DNA of 64,000 bases. Origin: Allorhodopirellula solitaria. Lineage in GTDB: Bacteria; Planctomycetota; Planctomycetia; Pirellulales; Pirellulaceae. Of the stretch, positions 1,041 to 64,000 are shown piece after piece (within the stretch, counting starts at the first letter, position 1; every line of letters begins with the position of its first letter). Location: the NCBI RefSeq assembly GCF_007859855.1, contig NZ_SJPK01000006.1, forward strand, positions 153,963-217,962, given 5' to 3'. The position numbers and the translations under genes were made by a program. The notes beneath the pieces were generated by a model. The model saw only the letters and a program-made list of their open reading frames with translations. It was not told the origin of the DNA and made no database searches.

Positions 1041-1102
1041 GAGCCTATGCCTCAAATATCCAACATTCTGGATGCCTGCCACTAAATTCCGAGAAGAACC
1101 CA
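1041..1102. repeat. Dispersed repeat, copy A (matches 29772-29834)
   Basis: About 62 bases that align over their whole length with 29772-29834 with scattered substitutions and one small indel. The shared core is 'ctggatg.ctgccact.aa.ttc', ending 'gagaag.acc'. The first part, GAGCC-ATGCCT-AAA, also resembles the inner arms of the element at 47088-47405. It lies between two genes and appears non-coding. Confidence 0.6.
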
Positions 1103-29771: not shown

Positions 29772-29834
29772 GAGCCCACTGCCTTGAAAATCCCGCATCC
29801 TGGATGACTGCCACTGAAATTCGAGAAGCACCTA
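29772..29834. repeat. Dispersed repeat, copy B (matches 1041-1102)
   Basis: About 63 bases alignable to 1041-1102. The start GAGCCCACTGCCTTGAAAA also resembles the inner left arm of the MITE at 47088-47405 read on the minus strand (GAGCCATGCCTTGAAAA), suggesting these intergenic repeats share an ancestor. Confidence 0.6.
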
Positions 29835-45679: not shown

Positions 45680-47002
<1,323 letters not shown>

Positions 47003-47087
47003 TCAATCCGACGAGTATCAATCCGAGGTGAAAACCGAGTAGGTGAGGTCTCTGGCGGAAGAACCCTGGCGGAAAGTGGACATTTTC

Positions 47088-47405
47088 GGCTCAACCGACG
47101 GAAGCGTTCGCCCGAGGTTTTCAAGGCATGGCTCCCGTATCGAAGGATTTATCTGTGGGATGTGATTGACAATATTGGACTGGCACTGCCGGGAGAAACG
47201 GAGCCGAGCTCTGCAGAGGTGCTGGCTTGGCAAGGGATATCTCGGTCGCCAGCGTTTCCCTGCAAAAGCGGTACGCCAATGGTGTTGTCGGTCCCTGGTG
47301 AGCGTTTGTTCGTCAGGGACGCATTTTTGAACGATCATTGGATACTGGAGCCATGCCTCAAAAAACCTTCCGCTGTGCTCTGCGCACGCTTCCGTCGGAT
47401 GAACC
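47088..47405. mobile_element. MITE-like element with terminal inverted repeats and 8-bp target duplication
   Basis: 318 bases. The left end GGCTCAACCGACGGAAGCG and the reverse complement of the right end (GGTTCATCCGACGGAAGCG) match at 17 of 19 positions; the match resumes further in around ATGGCTCC and GTATC, giving arms of about 55-65 bases. ACATTTTC occurs directly outside both ends (47080-47087 and 47406-47413), a perfect 8-base target duplication. It has no transposase gene. A second copy lies at 63750-64000. Confidence 0.85.
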
Positions 47406-47436
47406 ACATTTTCCTCATCTGCTCACTGCGGCACTA

Positions 47437-49218
47437 TTAGAAATCGCTCAATTCCATCCACTTTTCCTCCGCCTCGCTGAGCTCGACTTCGATGCCTTTG
47501 ATCTGCTCGTGCAACCGCACCGCTTCATTGGGCTTGGTCTCGGTGAGTAGCTGTTCATTGAGCTCTTTTTTCTCGTCGTCGAGTTTGGCGATCTTGCGTT
47601 CTAGGCTCTTGAGTTCCTTGCCTGTTTTTCGCTGATCTTTGTGCTGTTTCCGATCGTTTTTCCCACTCGACTTGGCACCGCCTGACGAACCCGCGGACGT
47701 GCCCGCGGCGGCGTTGCGTTGTCGCTCGCCTTCGGAAACCTCTTTCTCGACCGCATCGCAGTAGGTGTCGTAGCTGCCGAAGTAATTTCGGACCCGACCA
47801 TCGCGGACTTCGATCACGTTGGTAGCGACCTGGGCCATGAAGTGTCGATCGTGGCTGGTGAAGATGACGGTGCCTTTGTATTGCTGCAGAGCGTCAGCAA
47901 GAGCTTCAACGGTTTCGACATCGAGGTGGTTCCCCGGTTCATCGAGCACGAGCACGTTGGCGGTCCCCAACAGCAGGCTGGCCATGCAGACGCGAGCTCG
48001 TTCGCCACCGCTGAGCACCTTGATCTTTTTGTGAATAGCCTCATCTCGAAACAGCAGAGCTCCGGCCATGGCGAGCACATCCTGCCGGGTCGTGTCGGGA
48101 TCGGACGAATATTCGAGGTGCTCAAGGATCGTCTGGCGTTCATCGAGGGTCGTGTACACGTGCTGCGCATAGGTGCCGATCTCGATCCCATGGCCCCACT
48201 TCATTCTGCCATCGAGAGGTTCGAGCGAGCGCACGAGCGTCCGCAGCATGGTCGTTTTGCCTTGCCCGTTGTCGCCGACGATGGCCGCGCGTTGGCCATG
48301 CTCAATTTCTAGCGAGATGTCCTCAGCGACGCGGTTGTCGGGATAGCCGATCGCCAATTGTTCGCAGCGGACGGCAGTACCCTGGCGAGGCTGCACGCGC
48401 GGCGCCCGGATATTGACGGTGGGTTCGTCGACCTCCAGTTCCACGGTCTGCAATTTCTCGAGCTGTTTGGCTTTGCTCCGCGCTTGGCTAGCGGTGGAAG
48501 CATTGGCGCGATTTTTATCGATGAACTGTTTGAGTTGTTTCTGTTTCGCGATCACGGTGGCATTGACACGGCGATCGTGCTCGCGTCGCTCGTCACGAAA
48601 CTCGAGAAAATCGTTAATTTTACCGGGGTACATCGTCAGTTGCCCCTTGGCCAATTCCAGCGTTTGGCTGCAGGTTGCTTTCAGGAATGCCCGGTCGTGG
48701 CTAACGATCAAGGCCGCTTTGCCGAAATCGCGCAGGAAGTGCTCGAGCAAGATCTGGGTGCGGAGGTCAAGAAAGTTCGTCGGTTCGTCGAGCATCAGCA
48801 GGTTGGGATCGTGCAGCAGCAGGGCAGCCAACTTCACTCGCGTCTGCCACCCGCCCGAGAGGGCCTTCACCGGGCCTTCGAGGTAGTCGCCCTTAAGCTC
48901 AAATTGCCCTGCGACCTGCCCGCACCGCCAATCGGGTGCGCCACTGTCTCGCATCAAAAAATCCAGCGCCGATTCGCCTTCCTGGAACGGATCATGCTGT
49001 CGCAGATAGCCGATTCGTAGGTTAGGGTGATGGATCACTTCGCCTTTCTCGACCTCCTCCTCGCCTAGCAAAATGCGCAGCAGCGTGGACTTGCCCGCCC
49101 CGTTGCGGCCAACGAAGCCAATTTTGACATCCTCCACCAGACTCGCATTCGCTCCGTCGAGCAGAACTTGGTCACCGAAGCGTTTGAAGGCGTCGCGGAG
49201 TTGAATCAGAACGGCCAT
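47437..49218 (-). CDS. ABC-F family ATPase
   Basis: 593 residues. Two ABC domains in one chain with Walker A motifs GRNGAGKSTLL and GDNGQGKTTML, signature motifs LSGGWQTRVKLA and LSGGERARVCMA, Walker B LLMLDEPTNFLD and VLVLDEPGNHLD. The linker between domains is charged and helical, and there is no membrane domain, so it is an ABC-F translation factor type (Uup/EttA-like) that works on the ribosome rather than a transporter. The C-terminal coiled coil (KELKSLERKIAKLDDEKKEL) recalls Uup. The stop lies 24 bases from the MITE's right target repeat. Confidence 0.94.
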   Translation of the reverse strand: MAVLIQLRDAFKRFGDQVLLDGANASLVEDVKIGFVGRNGAGKSTLLRILLGEEEVEKGEVIHHPNLRIGYLRQHDPFQEGESALDFLMRDSGAPDWRCGQVAGQFELKGDYLEGPVKALSGGWQTRVKLAALLLHDPNLLMLDEPTNFLDLRTQILLEHFLRDFGKAALIVSHDRAFLKATCSQTLELAKGQLTMYPGKINDFLEFRDERREHDRRVNATVIAKQKQLKQFIDKNRANASTASQARSKAKQLEKLQTVELEVDEPTVNIRAPRVQPRQGTAVRCEQLAIGYPDNRVAEDISLEIEHGQRAAIVGDNGQGKTTMLRTLVRSLEPLDGRMKWGHGIEIGTYAQHVYTTLDERQTILEHLEYSSDPDTTRQDVLAMAGALLFRDEAIHKKIKVLSGGERARVCMASLLLGTANVLVLDEPGNHLDVETVEALADALQQYKGTVIFTSHDRHFMAQVATNVIEVRDGRVRNYFGSYDTYCDAVEKEVSEGERQRNAAAGTSAGSSGGAKSSGKNDRKQHKDQRKTGKELKSLERKIAKLDDEKKELNEQLLTETKPNEAVRLHEQIKGIEVELSEAEEKWMELSDF

Positions 49219-63749: not shown

Positions 63750-64000
63750 GGCTCATCCGAGGGAAGCGTGGGCCCGAGGTTTTCAAGGCATGGCTCCCGT
63801 ATCGAAGGATTTATTTGTGGGATGTGATTATCAATGTTAGACTGGCACTGCCGGGAGAAACGGAGCCGAGCTCTGCAGAGGTGCTGGCTTGGCAAGGGAT
63901 ATCTCGGTCGCCAGCGTTTCCCTGCAAAAACGGTACGCCAATGGTGTTGTCGGTCCCTGGCGAGCGTTTGTTCGTCAGGGACGCATTTTTGAACGATCAT
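63750..64000. mobile_element. Second copy of the MITE, truncated by the window end
   Basis: The sequence from GGCTCATCCGAGGGAAGCG to the window end aligns with 47088-47338 at high identity, with only a few substitutions over about 250 bases. The right inverted arm falls outside the window. It lies just upstream of fliG in the same orientation as the first copy. Confidence 0.9.

Follow-up and report, generated by a model that had tools for sequence, protein, structure and literature searches.

A MITE family with ISL3-type ends and 8-bp target duplications in Allorhodopirellula solitaria, interrupted by an IS110-family element

Within Microcystis, a 187-nt MITE has been attributed to the ISL3 family of insertion sequences on the basis of matching ends and 8-nt target duplications, according to the accessible text of the report (PMC11448079). 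A survey described ISL3 elements, in the text available, as overrepresented between genes (PMC9208149). In Coxiella burnetii, QMITE2 is presented as a hot spot for IS1111, with 20 of the 21 annotated IS1111 copies (PMC5896051), and IS110-type elements more broadly are described as targeting repeats and using guide RNAs (PMC11208160, PMC11187229). Chunjie, Correia and ERIC are high-copy, non-coding bacterial MITEs covered by a review whose main text has no occurrence of ISL3 or of Planctomyc- (PMC10969869). REP palindromes have been reported from planctomycetes, and the accessible text of that report does not describe the family treated here (PMC3733652).

The present family resembles the Microcystis MITE in its ISL3-matching ends (there GGCTCTTCG), its 8-nt duplications and its stem-loop RNA, as these are set out in the accessible text, and differs from it in sequence and phylum (PMC11448079). 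Chunjie, Correia and ERIC differ from it in sequence and host. An ISL3-derived MITE and the use of a MITE by an IS110-type element each have a published precedent in outline, in Microcystis and Coxiella, respectively; we found no account of the present family in the literature searched, subscription papers and supplements aside.

The window, that is, the whole stretch of 64,000 nucleotides that was analyzed, comes from a 6.8-Mb genome assembled into 62 contigs (G000). It contains one complete copy of the MITE and part of a second, with the following features (the + orientation of the MITE has the end leading into ...CCGAGGTTTTCAAGG on the left):

47080..47087, no strand: target duplication, left copy, ACATTTTC
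47088..47405, + strand: non-coding MITE of 318 bp, with full-length copies 95-100% identical elsewhere in the genome
47088..47111, + strand: left terminal inverted repeat; most copies of the family have 24 bp
47124..47125, + strand: left-arm AG core, occupied by an IS110-family insertion in one other copy (L274) and unoccupied in the window copy
47291..47320, + strand: terminator-like hairpin in the MITE, 13 pairs and then GCATTTTTGA, a consensus match only
47357..47358, - strand: right-arm AG core (CT on the + strand), occupied by an IS110-family insertion in 25 other copies and unoccupied in the window copy
47382..47405, - strand: right terminal inverted repeat; in MITE copy L004 this end matches the left end of the ISL3 element L105 at 23/24 positions
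47406..47413, no strand: target duplication, right copy, ACATTTTC
63750..64000, + strand: second MITE copy, cut by the window end; the whole copy is G000:C6:217712-218029 (L200)

The first-pass annotation had described a 318-bp insert with 19-bp ends matching at 17 positions and ACATTTTC on both sides, and the window sequence bears out each of these points. The left end begins with GGCTCAACCGACGGAAGCG at 47088, and the right end is the reverse complement of GGTTCATCCGACGGAAGCG, ending at 47405; the two are identical at 17/19 positions, and similarity between the arms extends beyond the 19-bp ends to approximately 61-72 bases. The left terminal inverted repeat of this copy has an A at position 7 and a T at position 21. 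Allowing ≤3 mismatches, we found GGTTCATCCGACGGAAGCG three times in the window (mean of 0.01 in 100 shuffles); two of these matches are the ends of the MITE at 47088-47405, and the third (63750) marks the left end of the second copy, which is without a target duplication (1/8 matching). The complete copy sits, free of IS110, between converging genes for an HtrA-like protease (trypsin and PDZ domains, on the left) and an ABC-F-like protein (ABC transporter domains, on the right). At the gathering threshold, Rfam identified two tRNAs in the whole window and nothing else.

A reading frame of 129 aa on the minus strand (47018-47407) overlaps the MITE. This frame had no match to Pfam or NCBIfam at an E value of 0.001, it is broken by a stop in 13/57 copies of 318 bp (among the matches listed), and its three codon positions accumulated 1.09, 1.25 and 1.58 mutations per site, which are weak differences. 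Based on these results we rejected a coding function for the frame, and the earlier statement that the insert codes for no transposase holds. The classification as a MITE is likewise upheld, as the element is short, lacks a transposase, has inverted ends and is present in many copies.

The multicopy status is evident from a genome-wide search with the end pattern, which gave 294 matches at ≤1 mismatch (149 and 145 on the two strands), compared with 0 for the reversed pattern. When the genome was searched with the window MITE itself, 40 of 241 first-look candidates were scored, and all 40, including the window copy, were full-length and 95-100% identical. At ≤3 mismatches there were 129 left-type and 155 right-type ends, from which we estimate about 150 copies or remnants. 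We then paired ends into elements, drawing on 100 of the 129 left-type ends, 100 of the 155 right-type ends and 100 of the 294 pattern matches. An end could differ at ≤6/24 positions, and pairs were dropped if they were <60 or >3000 bases apart or had <8 flanking letters; ISL3 loci L059-L063, L065-L068, L071 and L072, as well as the loci of other genomes, were left out. Among the matches listed, this yielded 100 distinct elements, with 64 unpaired ends set aside. Exactly 318 bp was the length of 57 of these paired copies (among the matches listed), with 69 at 310-322 bp, 9 at 296-304 bp and some of the remainder shorter or interrupted. The MITE is an otherwise anonymous repeat that carries spurious reading frames, and many contigs of the assembly end at interrupted copies of it.

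Two right ends on different contigs (L191 and L206, contigs C4 and C8) share an identical 20-bp outer flank, which is perhaps an assembly duplicate or a duplicated site. Beyond this genome, we found relatives of the MITE in 6 of the 40 genomes searched, G000 included, all within the same genus; the relative in G007 has 85% identity across positions 47-313. Genomes of sister species (G002 and G009) also contain short elements with the same ends and different interiors (L074, L075, L079 and L087).

Among the matches listed, the 57 copies of 318 bp differ from their consensus by a mean of 2.3% (range 0.3-6.6%). Mutations per site in these 57 copies (among the matches listed) numbered 2.4 in the left end (24 bases), 1.4 in the right end and 1.2 in the middle. 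The left end is thus the most variable part, which fits a family that is no longer moving.

Of the 100 paired copies among the matches listed, 40 have an 8/8 target duplication, 59 have 7 or 8/8, and 34 have ≤5/8; the corresponding counts for the 69 copies of about 318 bp (among the matches listed) are 31, 44 and 19. The first-pass annotation had named other copies without flanking 8-bp repeats as evidence against its interpretation, and on this point the result is divided, as the perfect duplications at 40/100 copies support it and the poor flanks at 34/100 (among the matches listed) do not. An orientation could be assigned to 36 of the perfect copies; in these, A or T accounts for 89-100% at duplication positions 3-6 but for 25-50% at the four bases flanking the duplication on each side. 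We compared the flanks of the 34 poor copies with one another and found 2 cross matches at 8/8 and 4 at 7/8; the corresponding numbers for 1260 control pairs of good copies were 0 and 6. These counts may weakly indicate that duplications are missing because copies exchanged flanks, a comparison that dispersed repeats confuse.

The ABC-F-like gene is present in 13/13 genomes of the genus, and the HtrA-like gene occurs within the fetched 1500 bases only in G000. The intergenic DNA between the two genes did not align in the other 12 genomes of the genus, where the same intergenic region is absent from the fetched neighborhood of the ABC-F gene, and no comparable empty site was found at the exact locus. 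Empty sites could be read from paralogous sequences instead because some MITE copies sit in another dispersed repeat. Copy L124 has the arrangement GGCGTTGAAGAAAATAG, MITE and GAAAATAGCCGG, that is, GGCGTTGAAGAAAATAG followed by 318 bp and GAAAATAGCCGGTGG; in L011, L038 and L120 the repeat is uninterrupted and reads GGCGTTGAAGAAAATAGCCGGTGG. At L047, AGTTTTCC flanks a 317-bp copy on both sides, and it occurs once only in L004, L038, L160, L204 and L225. These two paralogous empty sites are direct evidence of precise insertion and of duplication of 8 bp.

The ends of the MITE recur on complete insertion sequences. The ISL3 domain PF01610 had 14 matches in G000 and is present in 11/13 genomes of the genus. 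From the genus we fetched 26 ISL3 loci, and in 7 of them (G007, five; G005, one; G008, one) the end search matched the MITE end on both sides; by pattern, L091 in G008 is an eighth locus with MITE-type ends. In all, ISL3 ends that are the same or nearly the same as those of the MITE were found in three sister species. The 7 elements with both ends matched are 1335-1336 bp long and carry GGCTCATCCGAC at both ends, followed by variants of GGAAGCGT or TAAAGCGT; other ISL3 loci of the genus have other ends (e.g., GGTTCTTCGGGGAATT). Target duplications of 7-8/8 flank 4 of the 7 mapped copies (8/8 at L099, L101 and L109; 7/8 at L105), and duplications are absent (1-3/8) at L093, L110 and L113. The cognate transposase scored 305 bits against NCBIfam NF033550 (cut-off of 180) and 249.6 bits against Pfam PF01610. 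A scan of named genomes, in which the best 80 of 398 confirmed relatives were kept, identified similar ends with an 8/8 duplication at L290 (Aporhodopirellula aestuarii) and L291 (a Singulisphaera MAG, GGTTCATCCGGCGGAAGCGCGCGC) and similar ends with a 5/8 duplication at L293 (Aquisphaera insulae).

The left ends of the 1336-bp element L105 and of MITE copy L004 are identical at 25/25 positions. The right end of L004 matches the left end of L105 at 23/24 positions and the right end of the insertion sequence at 17/20. Because both ends of L004 match the left end of L105 best, the MITE looks like a pair of opposed insertion sequence left ends with unrelated DNA between them. The left end of the window copy departs from that of L004 and L105 at 2/24 bases. 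The MITE interior had no significant match to the insertion sequence, as the ends alone align, and it is not an internal deletion of that element. Since its ends match those of the sister-species ISL3 elements, the MITE was probably copied by an enzyme of this family. A full-length insertion sequence with the same ends, which the first-pass annotation had proposed to look for, thus exists in sister species, and its view that the insert is moved by an enzyme encoded elsewhere gains support from these sequence matches.

The same annotation had suggested an IS1595-type transposase as that enzyme, and this label should be replaced by ISL3. An 8-bp duplication and ends starting with GG are indeed compatible with IS1595. 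However, the IS1595 DDE domain (PF12762) had no match in G000 among the 4 candidates scored, and the same ends, together with 8-bp duplications, are found on ISL3 elements of sister species, so that we consider movement by an IS1595-family transposase extremely improbable. Another candidate is an ISL3 element that is still intact in G000. Element L059 is complete (1312 bp, with an 8/8 duplication CTCCCTCA and a frame of 411 residues), and its ends (GGTTCTTCTCGGAATT) begin like those of the MITE (GGTTC.TC). These ends diverge from the MITE after the first bases, however, the exact end match lies in another ISL3 lineage, and the transposase of L059 is ~30% identical to the cognate one. It is therefore very unlikely that an element of the L059 type moves the MITE.

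Alternatively, the copies might not be selfish DNA but be kept for a host function, for example, as intergenic processing sites or hairpin terminators. As RNA, both strands fold far better than shuffled sequences (z of -7.1 and -7.4), but this is expected because the element is a long inverted repeat, and long inverted repeats fold by construction. The terminator-like hairpin at 47291..47320 lies downstream of the + strand HtrA-like gene, which ends at 47002; by consensus match, 2 such hairpins were found in 46900-47600, where 0.8 were expected. In an alignment of 8 subfamily sequences, two-sided changes occurred in 11/65 consensus pairs, yet the covariation term was slightly unfavorable (+0.78). 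The copies also avoid long open frames: judged by open-frame length and not by gene calls, frames of ≥300 bases lie on both sides of 13/93 MITE sites, compared with 63% of 2925 random positions and 53% of 1456 A/T-matched positions in this window. This intergenic bias can also be explained by the loss of gene-disrupting insertions, and of the 40 genomes searched only the 6 of this genus mentioned above have a recognizable relative. We regard maintenance for a host function as unlikely.

Movement in trans by an ISL3-family transposase is the reading that we prefer, and the partner element of the MITE appears in G000 only as a remnant. Eleven of the 14 ISL3 matches are roughly 23-37% identical to the cognate transposase where they align with it; the overlapping matches L067 and L071 also have a 19-residue stretch at 74%, and L069 and L070 did not align. 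Only L072 belongs to the cognate lineage. It is a decayed scrap, a C-terminal remnant that is 59-61% identical to the cognate transposase (residues 344-419), and it adjoins a degenerate end, GGCTCATGCGACGAATGCG, with 3 mismatches to the MITE end. We found no intact cognate ISL3 element in the G000 assembly, which has gaps at repeats, and the MITE family looks orphaned in this genome. In Microcystis, the partner ISL3 elements were reported, in the accessible text, within the same genome (PMC11448079), whereas G000 yielded only a decayed scrap.

Perfect or near-perfect MITE ends at L061, L064, L069 and L070 were excluded as ends of partner elements, as they belong to MITE copies inserted in other ISL3 elements. 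Long copies (2306, 2273, 1438 and 634 bp) were also rejected as autonomous elements; they are MITEs into which an IS110-family element, an IS4-family element or a nested repeat of ~305 bp has been inserted.

The IS110-family element is 1975 bp long (L039:7055-9029), with 96 bp before its gene and 313 bp after it, and it interrupts many MITE copies at the same base. Its protein scored above the cut-offs for PF01548 (DEDD, 69.2 bits) and PF02371 (Transposase_20, 39.9 bits) and below the cut-off of 140 for NCBIfam NF033542 (125.3 bits). We searched the genome for this element starting from its own right end and not from the MITE. Right ends were found in 26 places (L263-L288), 25 of them identical over 30 bases, and all 26 lie inside the MITE; 25 occupy the AG core of the right arm, and the remaining one is at the corresponding core of the left arm. 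All 13 of the opposite junctions examined read into AGGCATGGCTC or a close variant, and AG is present at both junctions. The target is fixed and has a 2-bp core. Many of the 26 right ends lie no more than a few hundred bases from a contig end, and only one gene gave a full-length protein match in G000 at an E value of 1e-30, which indicates that the assembly breaks at this element. Because the other copies are cut off at contig ends or gaps, 26 is a count of right ends.

Relatives of the IS110 element in sister species (71% protein identity in G010 and 62% in G003) have other targets, with a CT core. In the search for a guide RNA loop matching the target, one element gave short matches at chance level, and 3 elements from three species gave no signal above swapped targets. 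Because the IS110 ends are near-identical and the MITE copies diverge by 2.3%, the IS110 expansion is suggested to have come after the spread of the MITE.

Elements IS4321 and IS5075 are IS1111-type elements that target the terminal repeats of Tn21-family transposons. The present case is similar in that an IS110-type element targets another transposon, here at a subterminal site of a MITE and there at a Tn21-family end. It is also similar to QMITE2, a MITE that serves as a landing site for an IS1111/IS110-type element (PMC5896051), with 26/26 right ends in the present case. The target in QMITE2 is a REP palindrome, and only one insertion there is clearly in a full-length MITE, as reported in the accessible text (PMC5896051); unlike QMITE2, the IS110 element here targets the part of the MITE arms that surrounds AGGCATGGCTC.

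Taken as a whole, it is highly probable that the window MITE was moved in trans by an ISL3-family DDE transposase and that its family later became a landing site for the IS110-family element. The transposase would recognize the end GGYTCATCCGACGGAAGCGTGCGC, and insertion would make 8-bp duplications at A/T-rich cores, mostly between genes. A single burst may have given rise to most copies, which average 2.3% from the consensus, and the autonomous ISL3 element would since have been lost from G000, the C-terminal scrap aside. The ends, the duplication, the multicopy status, the paralogous empty sites and the matching ends of sister ISL3 elements are direct observations, and from them we infer that this particular transposase lineage did the moving. 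Counted against this account are the poor duplications at 34/100 copies (among the matches listed), the variable left end, the failure to find an intact cognate transposase in G000, the 3/7 sister ISL3 copies without a duplication, and a match that is confined to the ends. The account resolves the origin of this repeat, linking a high-copy bacterial MITE to an identified ISL3 lineage through the identity of their ends.

We lean slightly toward a chain of three layers, in which an ISL3 enzyme, apparently lost since, scattered ~150 MITEs between genes and a guide-RNA-directed IS110 element specialized on the dead MITE and expanded. If so, dead MITE copies would be harmless landing sites for IS110, and the MITE burst would have created the IS110 niche. 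With 26/26 right ends inside the MITE, this genome offers a clean natural system for how IS110-family elements adopt transposons as safe targets.

Other repeats occur around and within the MITE copies. Of the 100 MITE copies (among the matches listed), 20 have another dispersed repeat (in L038, CCACAAGTTTTCCTACGCCGACGGCGTTGAAGAAAATAGCCGGTGG) no more than 150 bp away, compared with 10 of 2000 random window positions; the loci of this repeat include L120:601-900, L011, L038, L160, L204 and L225, among others. Window positions 1050-1100 and 29787-29833 match the last part of this repeat, and 1077-1100 reproduces without mismatch the 24-bp end GGTTCTTCTCGGAATTTAGTGGCA of L059, the other ISL3 element, which is complete; this stretch may be part of a second ISL3-derived repeat family. 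The nested repeat of ~305 bp occupies the same MITE position, 114-124 (window equivalent 47201-47211), in L013, L041 and L048, where it is flanked on both sides by a repeat of about 11 bp of MITE sequence, and in L048 its ends are inverted repeats.
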